Positions 207 to 23,752 of a DNA stretch of 23,752 bases are shown here, one piece after another (the first letter of the stretch is position 1; each line of letters begins with the position of its first letter). The DNA comes from a virus, in the IMG/VR virus record IMGVR_UViG_3300025853_000659, positions 1 through 23,752 of that record. One strand, 5' to 3'. The translations under genes and the position numbers were made by a program. Below the pieces are notes generated by a model. That model saw only the letters and a program-made list of their open reading frames with translations, was not told the DNA's origin and ran no database searches.

Positions 207-313
207 CCCCAATACGCCTTTGGTTTGTTTCTCTTGTTGATGCGTTTCTTGTGTACGCCGGGACGGCGAACCCGCTTCCGTTCGAGACGTACATTTTCAA
301 TCTTCTTTGCCAT
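203..313 (-). CDS. Small, very basic phage protein of unknown function (36 aa)
   Basis: A 36-residue ORF that overlaps the end of the lysozyme gene by 17 nt and reads in another frame. It is extremely basic, with MAKKIENVR at the start, a central RRPGVHKKR segment and an Arg/Lys-rich tail ending KAYWG. Small proteins with an RPG-H-K-R core recur beside lysis or structural genes of marine phages as I recall them, which supports it being real. A GAGGG sequence lies about 10 nt upstream of the ATG, and its TGA overlaps the ATG of the next gene (ATGA). The competing ORF at 73-300 in another frame has no such features and is treated as a shadow. Function unknown; nucleic-acid binding would fit the charge, but that is a guess. 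Confidence 0.6.
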   Translation of the reverse strand: MAKKIENVRLERKRVRRPGVHKKRINKRNKPKAYWG

Positions 314-755
314 CAGCCAGCGCCCTCATTCGTTTGACCAAACGCTCCGAGCGATTGGGCAGTTGACGCGCCCACTTGCTGTCGAGCATTTCCAGCGCAG
401 CACCAGCCCAATCCCTGTCATTGACGCAACGCTTCATGCCTTTAAAGCGCTTCATCGTGGGCAATCCCATATTAAACATCATGTTAGCGATGATGCGCTG
501 TGCCTCTTCTGGTAGCTCGCTGAAATCCTCATATAGCCTGTGACAATCCTCGCGCACAATGGCGATGTCCAGATCAAATAGCTGCTTCATGCGGCGCTCA
601 GTAATCGTGTAGCCCTCTGGCTTGCCGTGTTCTGTGTCGCCCTCAATGATACGATGGCCGACGCCAACAGTAAGATAGCCAGCCGTGCATTTGTAAATGT
701 CGAGCCTCATACCCTCATCAGCAATTAGCTCATCGCGTAGCTTTTCGATATCCAT
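297..755 (-). CDS. Endolysin, T4-type lysozyme (glycoside hydrolase family 24)
   Basis: Hydrolyses the beta-1,4 MurNAc-GlcNAc bonds of peptidoglycan to release progeny. The N-terminal catalytic block DEGMRLDIYKCTAGYLTVGV (residues 13-32), followed by GH, aligns by eye with the T4 lysozyme active site: Glu14 corresponds to the catalytic Glu11 and Thr29 to Thr26. The position of T4 Asp20 is Cys23 (codon at 687-689). The C-terminal half has the family helices with NMMFNMG and W-A-x-E-ML-DSKWARQLPNRSERL. The 152 aa match the family length (T4 lysozyme is 164). No signal peptide is visible, so export should need a holin. The ATG overlaps the TAA of the upstream nuclease gene (TAATG). Confidence in the family is high. 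Confidence 0.95.
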   Translation of the reverse strand: MDIEKLRDELIADEGMRLDIYKCTAGYLTVGVGHRIIEGDTEHGKPEGYTITERRMKQLFDLDIAIVREDCHRLYEDFSELPEEAQRIIANMMFNMGLPTMKRFKGMKRCVNDRDWAGAALEMLDSKWARQLPNRSERLVKRMRALADGKED

Positions 756-1168
756 TACCGCCTCATCTCCAAAACGTGATTAACCGCTTTAGCCCAGCTA
801 TCAATCTCCGCTTCAAGTGTAAAGCGCGTCGGGGACACGCGCATAGATCGTTGGCAGATTGGGTGCGACATGAACAAGCACCGGCGGGCATTGGGGGAAA
901 CAAGGCACAGAACATCGTAATCACTCGGCTTTGGTAAATGTTTTGTTTTGCAACCGTGACCCAATTGGAAATGGTGACGCGGAGATCGACCATCTTTATT
1001 AGACAAAAGATTAGCAGTCTTCGCTTGCACTCTGATAAAGTCATGCGTTCCATTCCACGCCACCAAATCCACTCGATCTTGCTGCGCCATAGAGACGCGC
1101 CAGCCGAGGCCCAATATTGCGGCAGCGGCGATGTATTCGCCAATCAGCCCGGTTGTTGTTTCGCTCAT
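755..1168 (-). CDS. PD-(D/E)XK-type nuclease-like protein (137 aa)
   Basis: The N-terminal half carries the layout of a PD-(D/E)XK endonuclease core. An acidic helix, GLIGEYIAAAAILGLGW, contains Glu11; a strand RVDLVAW contains Asp34; and the strand FIRVQAKTA contains the Gln48-x-Lys50 pair. In this superfamily Q-x-K can stand for E-x-K, as in phage and archaeal resolvase-like members. The second half (H65, H66, several Cys, YDVLCLVSP) is less conserved. Candidate roles are branched-DNA cleavage, host DNA breakdown or genome trimming. The gene sits inside the lysis cassette, overlapping the upstream gene by ATGA and the lysozyme gene by TAATG, so it is expressed late with them. Family assignment rests on motif spacing only. 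Confidence 0.7.
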   Translation of the reverse strand: MSETTTGLIGEYIAAAAILGLGWRVSMAQQDRVDLVAWNGTHDFIRVQAKTANLLSNKDGRSPRHHFQLGHGCKTKHLPKPSDYDVLCLVSPNARRCLFMSHPICQRSMRVSPTRFTLEAEIDSWAKAVNHVLEMRR

Positions 1169-1671
1169 GTAAGGCCGATAGCTTTCGCCGTTGACACCAT
1201 TATTGTTACAAACAAACCTACCACAACTAGCACCAACAAGAAAATAGCCAGACCTATTTTTACGTTTTCAATGGCCTCATCGTGCGCGATGGCCGCAGCC
1301 TTGGCCGCTGCAAGGCGAGCCTCTTTCTGCTCGCGCAAAGCCTGATTGTGGTGGTTGATAATCTCTTGCCACGTCGACGGCTGATCCGCTGGTTTAGGCC
1401 AGCGCATATTGATCATCGTTGCGATTTGCTGCATCTCTTCGTTGAGCCGCTTTGCCTCAAGCACCGCGTCGATGCTTCCCTTAAAGCTAACGTCGCCAAC
1501 CCCGGCCTGCTTGTTTCGTTCCTCGTTCAGTTTCTTTTGCGCCGAGAATAGTGTGCCGATCTGCTCGCCAAGATCAGCCACAGATTGCACATCATTAACC
1601 CGCGCCTTGATAAAGGCTATGGCATTTGAGGCGGCGGTTACTGCCGCTATCGCTGTGGTAATAGGCTCCAT
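1165..1671 (-). CDS. Tail-anchored coiled-coil membrane protein in lysis cassette (168 aa)
   Basis: Unknown function. The N-terminal 30 residues are Ala/Thr-rich (MEPITTAIAAVTAASNAIAF), followed by a long helical, charged region (about 35-135) with coiled-coil character, rich in Glu, Lys, Gln and Ala, and then a single strong transmembrane segment near residues 138-160 (IGLAIFLLVLVVVGLFVTIM). The C-terminal anchor would leave the helical region in the cytoplasm unless it is exported. The start at 1671 is preferred over the longer ORF from 1704 because its ATG overlaps the TAA of the upstream gene (TAATG). Place and topology suggest a lysis accessory such as a spanin-like or holin-regulating protein, but spanins usually have an N-terminal TM or a lipobox, so this remains open. 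Confidence 0.75.
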   Translation of the reverse strand: MEPITTAIAAVTAASNAIAFIKARVNDVQSVADLGEQIGTLFSAQKKLNEERNKQAGVGDVSFKGSIDAVLEAKRLNEEMQQIATMINMRWPKPADQPSTWQEIINHHNQALREQKEARLAAAKAAAIAHDEAIENVKIGLAIFLLVLVVVGLFVTIMVSTAKAIGLT

Positions 1672-2416: not shown

Positions 2417-2884
2417 CTAAGCGGCTAAGTTTAGTTCATCAGATATGCGCCAAGAATTGCGCCATTCTCTAGTCTGCGGTAATTGTTCCTTGCGGCATAT
2501 TACCATCTTCGGCTTGTTGCCGGTATCCCAATTCTGCCAGACGTGCTGTGGGATGTCCTTCTGAATTAGGTATTCGATTGCTTCTTCTTCAGTCATAGCT
2601 GGCATTGGTTCAGTCTCATGCAGCAAGTAACCTCTGGTGTGCTTCTTAAAGTCAGGCTGCGCCTCGTCCTTTGCCAGTTCCCAGTAGACCCACACCGGAG
2701 GGAGGATGTTTCCGGCAAGCGCACAGGCCATCCAGTTTGGGTCTGCAACGAGGATTTTAGCGCACTCATCAACGCTGTCCTCATAGACAACCCGATAGTC
2801 TGACTGCACACCCTCTAGGTTTTCTTTTGCCCAGCATAGGCGGTCAAATAGGTGTGTGCCTTTGAAATCTGGTGTCTGGGTCAT
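2417..2884 (-). CDS. Phage protein downstream of tail fibre genes, possible fibre-assembly helper (155 aa)
   Basis: No firm family. The protein is soluble, acidic and Trp-rich, with recognisable blocks: FDRLCWAKENLEGV near residue 13, DPNWMACALAGNILPPVWVY near 48, TRGYLLHETEPMPAMTEEEA near 83, and a C-terminal REWRNSWRIS. The final W-R-N-x-W-R helix recalls the end of tail assembly chaperones, and the place immediately after the fibre-tip genes supports a helper role, but this is inference. The start ATG overlaps the TGA of the upstream tip gene (TGATG), so translation is coupled. Proteins with the same DPNWMA and LHETEP blocks are, to my memory, frequent in marine phages. Confidence 0.6.
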   Translation of the reverse strand: MTQTPDFKGTHLFDRLCWAKENLEGVQSDYRVVYEDSVDECAKILVADPNWMACALAGNILPPVWVYWELAKDEAQPDFKKHTRGYLLHETEPMPAMTEEEAIEYLIQKDIPQHVWQNWDTGNKPKMVICRKEQLPQTREWRNSWRISDELNLAA

Positions 2885-3240
2885 CAGGCGAGGTCTCCGT
2901 GTGTTGTGGTGTAAACACCCTCTAAGTCAACACCATTCACACCGACAGTGTGTCCTGTCGTTGCAACGTTGTATAATGCGTGTGCAAAAAATCCCACACT
3001 ATCATAACCACTTGATTGAGGTGCGTGTGCAGAGCTTGACATAGCGTTACTGTATGCGTAATCACTCCGCCCTGTTCCCGCATCAGTGACACTGGCAATG
3101 TTGAAACTGTCAGCAATGTCGTGCGTTGAGTTCTGGTCATTATTACACCACACCTTCGCACTACCATTCACAACGTATTCTGTTGATAGGCTACCTGCGG
3201 TGCTGTGTTCCAGCGTATCTGCTATAATTTTTCCAGCCAT
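2884..3240 (-). CDS. Tail-fibre tip-type protein, HGDLA family, copy 3 (118 aa)
   Basis: The last of three tandem related genes. It starts MAGKIIADTLEHSTAGSL, has the core SAKVWCNN and DSFNIASVTDAGTG, and ends THGDLA. The sequence is Ser/Thr/Gly-rich and probably all-beta, as in trimeric fibre domains. The middle part (about residues 60-110) shares little with the other two copies, which suits a variable, target-contacting region. A receptor-binding or fibre-tip role is inferred from the neighbourhood (fibre adaptor upstream, assembly helpers downstream). One nucleotide separates its ATG from the stop of copy 2, and its own TGA overlaps the next ATG. Confidence 0.7.
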   Translation of the reverse strand: MAGKIIADTLEHSTAGSLSTEYVVNGSAKVWCNNDQNSTHDIADSFNIASVTDAGTGRSDYAYSNAMSSSAHAPQSSGYDSVGFFAHALYNVATTGHTVGVNGVDLEGVYTTTHGDLA

Positions 3241-3241
3241 T

Positions 3242-3658
3242 TTATGCTAAGTCTCCGTGCAAATTAAAGCCATTTTCAGTGGAATCGTAAATGCTTCCAC
3301 CACCACCGCCTTGATAACGGCTAGAAAATTGAAATGCGGATGTCGTCTTAGTATCGGCAATATTTGCAGTTAAAGTGTAAGCATAACCTGTATCGGAACC
3401 ATCTGCCCTTGCAAATCCCGTAATGCCATAAGTTGTGTTTCCCATCGCACTGAAAATCCCGACTGCGTGATTGCCGGTGCTGTTATCTGTAAATGAAGAC
3501 GTATTTAAGCTGTCAGTAATTGCAGATGCACTGGTGTTTGCCCAAACCTTCGCCAGCCCCTGCTGCAACTGCATAGTCGCCGCACCACCTTCAGAGGTCA
3601 CTGTGATGTCACCAGCGGAGGTTTTGCCAGTGAGGGTGTCTACTTTTATCTCACTCAT
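3242..3658 (-). CDS. Tail-fibre tip-type protein, HGDLA family, copy 2 (138 aa)
   Basis: The second and longest of the three tandem related genes. The N-terminus MSEIKVDTLTGKTSAGDITV matches the KVDTL start of copy 1 and is typical of fibre proteins in marine phages as I recall them. The shared core LAKVWANTS and DSLNTSSFTDNSTGN follows. A variable region contains a glycine run (QGGGGGSIYDS), and the protein ends LHGDLA. The composition is Ser/Thr/Gly/Ala-rich without long helices. The start overlaps the stop of copy 1 (ATGA). It probably forms part of a distal tail fibre or tip; whether all three copies are built into one fibre or are alternatives cannot be told from sequence. Confidence 0.7.
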   Translation of the reverse strand: MSEIKVDTLTGKTSAGDITVTSEGGAATMQLQQGLAKVWANTSASAITDSLNTSSFTDNSTGNHAVGIFSAMGNTTYGITGFARADGSDTGYAYTLTANIADTKTTSAFQFSSRYQGGGGGSIYDSTENGFNLHGDLA

Positions 3659-4011
3659 GCTAGGTCTCCGTGTGCTGCGTTCATATTTCTAACATCTTCT
3701 AACGCACTTGGGCTGTGCGTTAGTACAGCCATTTGACTTGTTGTGTGTTGGGAAAAATTTACAGTTGCCAATCTGTTAAGAGAAGTTGTAAAAACATTTG
3801 ATGTTTGAGTAGGGCGAACAGAAAAGGTGCTTGTAACACCGAACCTAAAATTTCCTGTAGCAGCGTCTGTAGTGCTTGATATTCCAAACGAATCTTCATT
3901 AGTGCTGCCCCCTTCGTTTGAAACCCAAGCCTTCGCCGCACTCTGCTTAGTCAGCGTGACAGGACTTGTGCCATCGCTGGCTACTAAGGTGTCTACTTTT
4001 ACTGTACTCAT
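3655..4011 (-). CDS. Tail-fibre tip-type protein, HGDLA family, copy 1 (118 aa)
   Basis: The first of three tandem related genes. The N-terminus MSTVKVDTLVASDGTSPVTL is followed by the shared core AKAWVSNEG and DSFGISSTTDAATGNF, a variable region, and the C-terminal AHGDLA. The predicted character is beta-rich and Ser/Thr-rich, like fibre shaft and tip domains. It sits 1 nt after the 71-aa fibre-type gene and overlaps copy 2 by ATGA. The role in receptor contact is inferred from context and from the pattern of conserved ends with a divergent middle. Confidence 0.7.
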   Translation of the reverse strand: MSTVKVDTLVASDGTSPVTLTKQSAAKAWVSNEGGSTNEDSFGISSTTDAATGNFRFGVTSTFSVRPTQTSNVFTTSLNRLATVNFSQHTTSQMAVLTHSPSALEDVRNMNAAHGDLA

Positions 4012-21872: not shown

Positions 21873-22100
21873 CTATCCTAATGTTGATTGATCTTCGGCT
21901 GTACCGCCGCGAATGCTTGACAGCAGCATACGAGTGCCGCCCATACGCCGTGCGCGTTGACGCGCCGCAAGCTGCCTTGACTGCAATTGCTCTTGTGCAT
22001 CAAGGCGTTCCTCTTGCCGTTTCTGTGCTTCAGTCACCTCTGGCGCGACTTGCTCCGGCTTTGGCATCGCTGGCATTTTAGGTTTGAAAAGATTGCTCAT
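21873..22100 (-). CDS. Small structural-type protein ending in a TLG motif (75 aa)
   Basis: The N-terminus is Pro/Lys/Met-rich (MSNLFKPKMPAMPKPEQVAP), residues 22-50 are a charged helix with coiled-coil character (AQKRQEERLDAQEQLQSRQL), and the C-terminus is RMGGTRMLLSSIRGGTAEDQ followed by STLG. The G-T-R-x-L-L-x-S...T-L-G ending recurs in small proteins between terminase and portal genes of podoviruses as I recall them. Unknown function. The ATG overlaps the TGA of the GNAT-like gene (ATGA). Confidence 0.7.
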   Translation of the reverse strand: MSNLFKPKMPAMPKPEQVAPEVTEAQKRQEERLDAQEQLQSRQLAARQRARRMGGTRMLLSSIRGGTAEDQSTLG

Positions 22101-22573
22101 TCATAAATCCTTGCGAACATCATGTGATCTATACCGCCCGCACCATATTTGCGCATGACGCCTTCTGGCGTGAATTTTAACATCTTTGCCCAGCGCATCG
22201 CAAGCTCGTTTTCCACGTCGACAGTGATTTGCAATCTTTTTAATTTATCTTCTGTAGCAATCTTATCGAAATATCTAATAGTTGCTCTAGTCAATGTAGA
22301 AGCCAGTGATACTATTTCTACAGATGTTATTAACCAAGCCTCTGAGACGCCCGGCCACATATTATTGCAACCCCAACAGGCGACGATCTTGCCGCGCCAC
22401 AAGGCAGTACAAGCGCCGCCCTCGGCTTGAAACGCCTTTAGCATATCCTGATAATTCGGAATATTGTCAAACGCCCGCTTGTCAAACTCGCGCAAATCCA
22501 TTGCGTAGGGGTGCGCCCAGTGAAACGGCACAATCTGAACCTGACGATTGTTTGTTATTTCGCGCTGCCACAT
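22097..22573 (-). CDS. GNAT-like protein, T7 gp13 (internal protein A) type (158 aa)
   Basis: The fold looks like a GCN5-type acetyltransferase: an N-terminal strand-helix unit (QVQIVPFHWAHPYAMDLREF), the core strands ACTALWRGKIVACWGCNNMW (54-73), a helix followed by LKRLQITVDVENELAMRWAK (112-131) and the end strand FTPEGVMRKYGAGGIDHMMF. A clear acetyl-CoA R/Q-x-x-G-x-G/A loop is missing at the usual place, so catalysis is doubtful. T7 gp13, a small morphogenesis protein, has the same reduced GNAT-like form, and such genes occur widely in marine podoviruses. Its position just after the terminase differs from T7, where gene 13 follows gene 12. The start overlaps the terminase stop (TAATG). Confidence 0.75.
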   Translation of the reverse strand: MWQREITNNRQVQIVPFHWAHPYAMDLREFDKRAFDNIPNYQDMLKAFQAEGGACTALWRGKIVACWGCNNMWPGVSEAWLITSVEIVSLASTLTRATIRYFDKIATEDKLKRLQITVDVENELAMRWAKMLKFTPEGVMRKYGAGGIDHMMFARIYE

Positions 22574-23752
22574 TAGAATATGCTAAAATCCATATTGGCT
22601 GTGGCCTGCTTAAACTGCTTGCTGAACTGGCTGTTGCGCGTGATGTTCCGCACCTCGCCAGCGCCAAGCATCAAATAGCCAAACGCATCGCCAACGTGCG
22701 AGTGCTGGTTTTTATTCGGCACATCGCGGAACCGTTCCTGCCCAGACCCGACGGCCATACGCTTGAAATGATACCCGCCAGCCAGCGACTTACGCACCTT
22801 GGCGCAAGAGCGATTAACCAAAAGCCCCGGCTTGCCGTCGATCAGCCTATTCATCGGCATAGCCCCAGCCTCGCGTCGCACCATAAAATCGTTGGTGCTG
22901 GTCGGCCTAGCGTGAAGCCCCATCGTGCGCAAATGCTCAAACGCCGTGACCTCAAATATCTCGTCACGCTTGACGCCCGCCGGATCGCCCCAGATCAGCA
23001 CGTCCGACTTTGGAAAGTGCTGCTGTATGTCAGCCAGCAAGTGATGGCAAAACCTTTCCAAGCCCATATCAAACGCAACAAGCTCATGCACGACGTGCCA
23101 CCGCCCATTCTGCATCTTCTGCCCAAACACAGCCGCGGGGGTCAAACCAAAGTCAAGCCCGATATGCACCGGCCAGCCTTCCTCGATGCGCACGTCAGCC
23201 GACATCAGGCTATCAGAAAACTCATGCCAGACAGGCTTGCCGTCCTGCACAAACACATATTGCGCCCCAGCGTAGCATTGTATCCAGTCAATGCTCTTAC
23301 CGGCTAACTGCTGCTCGTAATAGCCGGGCGGCAGATTATTCGTATTCTCGGCCTTCGGGTTATTGATCCAGTATTTATCAGCCGCAAATATTGCGTTCTC
23401 ATGTTCTTTCGTACCCTCGACCACACCGCCGGGCTGCTTGTAAAATTTCCAAGGATACTTTCCGCGAATGGGGTTCTTCTCAGCCAACTGGTGCCACCAG
23501 TGATCGCTATCCATTGGGTTTGTACTCATCCACACGCCGCGCCAAGTGCAGCCCGCATTCGCCCGCGTCGGGTAACGACCGACACGCGACGTCAATCCAT
23601 CAACCACCGCCTTCGGGAGTTCACGAGCCTCATCTATGAAGCCGCCGGTCAATTCCAAAGATAAAAGTTTCCGCACATCGCGTGGCTGATCCAACGCCAA
23701 AAAGATCACCTCACAATCAAGCCCAGCCGCGCCATCGCGCGGCGGCAGCTTG
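22573..23752 (-). CDS. terL: Terminase large subunit, C-terminal part (runs off the window)
   Basis: The DNA-packaging motor. The reading frame is open to the window edge, so the N-terminus (with the Walker A loop) is missing; about 392 residues are visible. A Walker B-like segment GGFIDEARELP lies near visible residue 36-46, and the coupling-type STNP follows near 76. The RNase H-like nuclease domain shows its three acidic motifs: HIGLDFGLTPA (about 196-206), WGDPAGVKRDE and, near the end, SHVGDAFGYL. This is the T7 gp19 type of layout. In T7 the gene is at the end of the late region after the lysis genes; here it precedes portal. The next gene overlaps the stop (TAATG). Confidence 0.96.
   Translation of the reverse strand, partial: KLPPRDGAAGLDCEVIFLALDQPRDVRKLLSLELTGGFIDEARELPKAVVDGLTSRVGRYPTRANAGCTWRGVWMSTNPMDSDHWWHQLAEKNPIRGKYPWKFYKQPGGVVEGTKEHENAIFAADKYWINNPKAENTNNLPPGYYEQQLAGKSIDWIQCYAGAQYVFVQDGKPVWHEFSDSLMSADVRIEEGWPVHIGLDFGLTPAAVFGQKMQNGRWHVVHELVAFDMGLERFCHHLLADIQQHFPKSDVLIWGDPAGVKRDEIFEVTAFEHLRTMGLHARPTSTNDFMVRREAGAMPMNRLIDGKPGLLVNRSCAKVRKSLAGGYHFKRMAVGSGQERFRDVPNKNQHSHVGDAFGYLMLGAGEVRNITRNSQFSKQFKQATANMDFSIF

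Follow-up and report, generated by a model that had tools for sequence, protein, structure and literature searches.

A predicted PD-(D/E)XK nuclease gene usually co-inherited with the endolysin in a group of environmental phages

Phage lysis is usually described in terms of holins, endolysins and spanins. In phage T7, a nuclease gene lies directly before the lysozyme gene and overlaps it by 1 nt, the order being SSB gene 2.5, gene 2.8, endonuclease gene 3 and the lysozyme gene (gene 3.5). The T7 nuclease–lysozyme pair is located in the middle region, and the product of gene 3, endonuclease I, is annotated as a Holliday junction resolvase and has roles in host DNA breakdown. Enzymes relevant by fold are the PD-(D/E)XK homing endonuclease I-Ssp6803I (PDB 2OST), the archaeal Holliday-junction resolvase Hjc (1GEF) and DREN, the SPARDA defence nuclease. 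According to a published structure, the catalytic residues of DREN are Asp41, Gln60 and Lys62, of which Asp41 and Gln60 bind Mg, and an Asp-to-Ala change abolishes activity (PMC12205087). Here, we compare these systems with a small gene, named NUC, in the lysis region of a 23,752-base virus record, the whole of which we refer to as the window.

NUC is a real open reading frame of 137 aa with an ATG start at positions 755-1168 of the minus strand, as the initial annotation had placed it, and it indeed sits between a putative tail-anchored protein and a lysozyme, to both of which it is joined by overlapping junctions. The upstream neighbor (1165-1671, minus strand; longest ORF to 1704) encodes a protein of 168 aa that carries a hydrophobic segment at its C-terminal end, the strongest such stretch, residues 141-159, fitting the description as tail-anchored. 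Its stop codon overlaps the NUC start by 4 nt (ATGA), and the NUC stop codon overlaps the start codon of the lysozyme gene by 1 nt (TAATG). The latter gene (297-755, minus strand) encodes a 152-aa phage lysozyme, or endolysin, matching PF00959 (E 1.3e-12) and phrog_7 (endolysin). Also on the minus strand are a 67-aa small protein of the cassette with no family match in Pfam or PHROG (1671-1874), a 57-aa protein with one possible membrane segment and a weak holin-family match at E 0.21 (1867-2040) and, downstream of the lysozyme, a 67-aa protein matching phrog_10198, again with one possible membrane segment (9-212). Among 81 NUC relatives, the downstream junction overlapped in 71 of 79 scorable cases and the upstream junction in 69 of 78, counting a neighboring gene of any identity. 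The large genes of the window lie on the minus strand and lead from the terminase large subunit (22573-23751) toward the low-coordinate lysis region. The best match to this terminase among annotated phages is in Methylophilales phage MEP301 (60.7%).

The assignment of NUC to the PD-(D/E)XK nucleases was assessed by profile searches, structure prediction and structure comparison. In Pfam, the window protein matched PDDEXK_5 (PF11645; E 4e-4, 20.9 bits, gathering cut-off 26.1) and nothing else at E 1 or better. The cut-off was exceeded in seven of ten related records, with no match in G001, whose NUC is 99% identical. PHROG searches aligned residues 1-116 with positions 2-116 of the 134-position phrog_5018 model (E 3.2e-14), a family without a functional name that thereby gains a likely activity. 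The best AlphaFold2 model reached a pLDDT of 86.7, with low confidence in two of the five models (56.2 and 53.5). It contains a helix (residues 3-20) followed by strands 24-27, 35-38 and 44-51, that is, the helix-strand-strand-strand core of PD-(D/E)XK enzymes, and not a fold lacking this core. I-Ssp6803I has the same fold over nearly the whole NUC chain: Foldseek matched the model to 2OST at E 3.7e-6 with a TM of 0.73, and VIA-align ranked I-Ssp6803I first (Z 13.4 over 126 residues, 17% identity). The next structural matches were archaeal Hjc (Z 9.2 over 101 residues), whose likeness to NUC is one of fold, and SPARDA DREN (Z 9.2). The parallel with I-Ssp6803I extends to PDDEXK_5, the only Pfam family that NUC members match, with 21 of the 25 aligned ones reaching E 0.01 or better. 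When solved structures were searched by sequence, no significant relative came up, only chance matches such as hydrogenases, and 2OST surfaced at E 0.68 with the wider NUC profile only; the likeness to I-Ssp6803I therefore stays at the level of the fold.

In the model, Glu11 (codon 1136-1138, minus strand here and below) lies in helix 1, Asp34 (1067-1069) just before strand 2, and Gln48 (1025-1027) and Lys50 (1019-1021) on strand 3. All four residues, found exactly where the initial annotation had put them, were shared by all 53 distinct aligned sequences of a first set and by 96 of the 97 rows in a wider one, both including the window. Asp34, Gln48 and Lys50 occurred in 97 of 97 rows and Glu11 in 96, the remaining row being cut off by a contig end. 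Such invariance is not due to chance. Gln48, flagged earlier for checking because it stands in place of the usual glutamate, is a family feature and not an oddity, given its presence in every aligned row. Hjc carries Glu at the place where the NUC family has Gln. An Asp...Gln-x-Lys active site is shared, together with the fold, by SPARDA DREN (PMC12205087), and by this analogy Gln for Glu is a known functioning variant. Unlike the SPARDA enzyme, NUC is a 137-aa protein on its own, lacking the remaining SPARDA components. Taken together, the predicted fold, the invariant residues and the profile match support the earlier assignment, and NUC is very probably a PD-(D/E)XK nuclease.

We then evaluated selection on the gene and its distribution. 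The median dN/dS of NUC was 0.22 (1482 pairs, 64 distinct sequences), a sequence-level demonstration of purifying selection; the value for the lysozyme was lower (0.066; 100 pairs, 19 sequences). Frames were full length (136-162 aa) in all 81 relatives first collected, in a locus search that favors intact copies. No NUC relatives were found on plasmids, and none was confirmed in bacterial genome contigs, for which two short patterns served as the only query. Among 50,697 annotated phages searched with the window protein, one record, phage C72C1, carried a relative. No paper on C72C1 was found, and neither the literature on lysis-cassette nucleases nor that on Gln variants described this gene in its titles and abstract openings, which is not proof of absence. 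Five tailed halovirus records contain a distant PD-(D/E)XK match (29% to the NUC of locus L339, E 2e-3). In one of them, HSTV-4 (L344, 3962-4423), the match is flanked by a tRNA gene on one side and by genes leading to a DNA primase on the other, and no endolysin is annotated in the stretch shown around it.

The neighborhood of NUC was surveyed in relatives from three starting points, using loci that are environmental contigs, many of them short, with some contigs shared among the surveys. Among the best 80 of 123 loci seeded with NUC, the prevailing order was membrane protein, NUC, lysozyme, as in the window. Seeding with the lysozyme (best 80 of at least 598 loci) gave 30 loci with a lysozyme identity of 76% or more. 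Four of these begin only at the lysozyme gene or within it; the remaining 26 have upstream sequence and all carry NUC there, one of them partially. NUC was present in none of the 50 loci with a lysozyme at 57% or less, a few of which are cut close upstream. The third survey ignored NUC and endolysin and was seeded with p155 and a 180-aa tail protein, yielding 160 loci. An even rule demanded 1.8 kb beyond a membrane-protein anchor of every locus, which left out 72 without the anchor (none with NUC) and 24 that were too short (17 with NUC, 6 of these without an endolysin before the contig end). NUC occurred in 53 of the 64 scorable lysis regions, and all 53 also contained an endolysin, either a lysozyme or an M15 peptidase, directly adjacent to NUC on the same strand in 42 cases. 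An endolysin without NUC was seen in 9 of the 64 regions and neither gene in 2. Dereplication at 95% (n = 52) gave 42 regions with NUC, 8 with an endolysin without NUC and 2 with neither. An alternative six-frame count found NUC in 64 of 75 loci, but it retained a short locus solely when that locus showed both genes, which favors linkage. NUC is dispensable, since some regions have an endolysin only or neither gene and since MEP301 is without NUC. Judged from these gene neighborhoods, it is usually co-inherited with the endolysin in this group of environmental phages, of whose endolysin/holin module it is a regular, though non-universal, component.

Three layouts were observed. In the first, on the late strand, a membrane protein is followed by NUC and an endolysin (lysozyme or M15 peptidase), often with a small membrane protein and a holin. 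In the second, found in C72C1, L271, L281, L289, L295 and L319, the tail genes occupy one strand and a NUC-lysozyme-holin block the other; in C72C1, this block is downstream of a Sak-like annealing protein and an SSB. The third, seen in four loci seeded with the tail protein, including L339, has the order holin, M15 peptidase, NUC. The late placement that the initial annotation had assumed is hence not general, given the opposite-strand block in C72C1 and five metagenomic loci, and NUC may be made earlier on the SSB-bearing strand of C72C1. The block also occurs in two clearly different genome backbones, one represented by G001, which has the window's structural genes, and by G010, a distant variant with common portal, capsid and tail genes, and the other by G002-G008, with C72C1-like head genes.

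The NUC-endolysin linkage could reflect exchange of the whole block rather than a shared function. NUC would then be a replication or recombination nuclease that stands beside the endolysin merely as a passenger, as its position opposite the tail genes in six loci, and behind Sak and SSB in C72C1, might suggest. In those same opposite-strand loci, however, lysozyme and holin adjoin NUC on the same strand, and the adjacency persists with the other endolysin type, so that we regard this explanation as very improbable.

Within the block, the lysozyme immediately adjoining NUC changes its alleles independently. Eight loci combine a NUC below 80% with a lysozyme at 88% or more, whereas the reverse is seen in L005, with a NUC at 96% and an adjoining lysozyme at 39%. 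Widely divergent alleles in one slot, as in L112 (NUC 49%, lysozyme 94%), resemble the outcome of an arms race and, together with the fold common to the SPARDA defence nuclease, would agree with an enzyme that destroys competing DNA, be it from superinfecting phages or from other mobile elements. Such a role would not need a place beside the endolysin, though; moreover, no self-protection factor was identified and NUC had no PADLOC match, and we consider it improbable.

The nearest fold being that of a homing enzyme, we also weighed whether NUC is an I-Ssp6803I-type homing endonuclease, free-standing and able to spread itself together with the lysis genes on its flanks. The occurrence of the block in two backbones is in line with this, as are short group I introns in the capsid gene of three NUC-bearing phages. 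These introns split the major capsid protein gene at L082 2190-2430 (C72C1), L092 7695-7944 (G005) and L095 13234-13480 (G007), at one of two positions, inside roughly the first 25 codons (G005 and G007) or close to residue 105 (C72C1). With a length of about 0.2-0.25 kb, the introns seem too small to contain the gene of an endonuclease, and that of C72C1 is far from NUC. In contrast to what defines an I-Ssp6803I-type homing endonuclease, NUC is not encoded inside a group I intron: at gathering level, neither the window nor L003, L053, L309, L339, L271 and L319 over their full length gave an intron match, and around NUC no match reached E 1. NUC further differs from I-Ssp6803I in being only 17% identical to it and in being tied to endolysin genes. 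Its presence in every scorable close lysozyme-seeded locus (26 of 26, among the best 80 of at least 598) and the full-length frames of the first 81 relatives, albeit from a search favoring intact copies, argue against homing as well. The same holds for conservation, which does not peak at NUC, as in L005, where a closely similar NUC adjoins a divergent lysozyme. Finally, G006 and G008 carry NUC along with an uninterrupted capsid gene. Overall, homing appears quite unlikely. A link between NUC and the introns as such was given low weight, as introns occurred in only 3 of 11 NUC-bearing phages scanned nearly whole (G001-G010 and C72C1), with intact capsid genes in G006 and G008.

Complementarily, we searched the same records for other nucleases. 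All 14 NUC-bearing records tested encoded PDDEXK_15, as did 2 of 12 records lacking NUC, some of the 12 being fragments; PDDEXK_14 was found in 9 of 14 and 0 of 12, respectively. The replication region of G006 contains a YqaJ exonuclease, a GIY-YIG gene, PDDEXK_15 and PDDEXK_14, and its PDDEXK_15 protein matches phrog_244 ('RusA-like Holliday junction resolvase'). The GIY-YIG gene of this region (L094, 9642-10955) is homing-endonuclease-like; it adjoins the YqaJ exonuclease and is on the other strand than the tail genes. A profile comparison between NUC and one PDDEXK_15 sequence revealed no relation. Replacement of a resolvase by NUC had been considered because MEP301 encodes RusA and is without NUC, whereas none of ten NUC-bearing records has RusA; it was set aside in view of the PDDEXK_15 distribution.

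These data bear on the proposal that NUC is a structure-selective resolvase, debranching replicated phage DNA before packaging, with late placement providing the timing. Hjc is among the structural matches following I-Ssp6803I, and the T7 nuclease that adjoins the lysozyme is annotated as a Holliday junction resolvase. With PDDEXK_15 in all 14 NUC-bearing records tested, including the G006 match to phrog_244, NUC is therefore not the sole resolvase candidate, which weakens the pre-packaging role put forward in the initial annotation. NUC also accompanies the endolysin, not terminase or recombination genes. A resolvase function hence seems unlikely.

T7 provides the closest parallel in gene order. 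As in T7, the nuclease gene precedes the lysozyme gene directly with a 1-nt overlap, and an SSB gene lies upstream of the nuclease in T7 and in C72C1. The two nucleases are apparently unrelated, as hhalign between NUC and a single T7 endonuclease I sequence gave a probability of 0.03% and no visible relation. A nuclease beside a lysis gene had earlier been read as a departure from classic phages; as T7 has the same layout, the pairing is less surprising. Of that first interpretation, the nuclease assignment thus stands on fold, residues and profile, whereas general late placement and the lack of a classic nuclease-lysozyme precedent do not.

What the sequences show is the gene itself, the conservation of its four residues, purifying selection, junctions that overlap and inheritance together with the endolysin. 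The account we tentatively prefer, at somewhat less than an even chance for all its parts jointly, is that NUC is a PD-(D/E)XK endonuclease, a regular part of the endolysin/holin module, and that it serves a role comparable to that of T7 endonuclease I. With a complete active site resembling those of I-Ssp6803I and DREN, the enzyme would be active, made together with the endolysin, and would cut DNA in the second half of infection. In the cytoplasm, either before lysis or as it occurs, it would cleave the DNA of the host as well as phage DNA that is left over or tangled, and a separate nuclease of the replication region would serve recombination. Counting against the T7-like job, the closest fold is that of a homing enzyme. 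A possible but less probable reading is a dedicated DNase of the lysis module, made with the endolysin as a regular lysis component alongside holin, endolysin and spanin. Its task would be to fragment the nucleoid of the host along with unpackaged DNA, keeping the lysate fluid for departing virions, or else to destroy competitors' genomes. Here, the persistence of the NUC-endolysin pairing through a change of endolysin type and a strand switch of the block is of relevance.

Because NUC goes with two endolysin types and has a T7-like layout with an apparently unrelated enzyme, the pairing of a DNA-cutting enzyme with an endolysin may, as these observations suggest, have arisen more than once. 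This raises the question of whether DNA cutting at lysis helps virion release, nucleotide supply or competition.

Two further regions of the window were observed. Directly after the terminase gene, positions 22097-22573 encode a protein that matches phrog_4177; its similarity to phrog_308 ('internal virion protein') is weaker and that to GNAT acetyltransferases marginal (E 0.067). Three successive small genes (2884-3240, 3242-3658 and 3655-4011) encode products that all end in HGDLA. Additional copies are present in relatives such as L209, L240, L249 and L253, which suggests a variable tandem array close to the tail genes.
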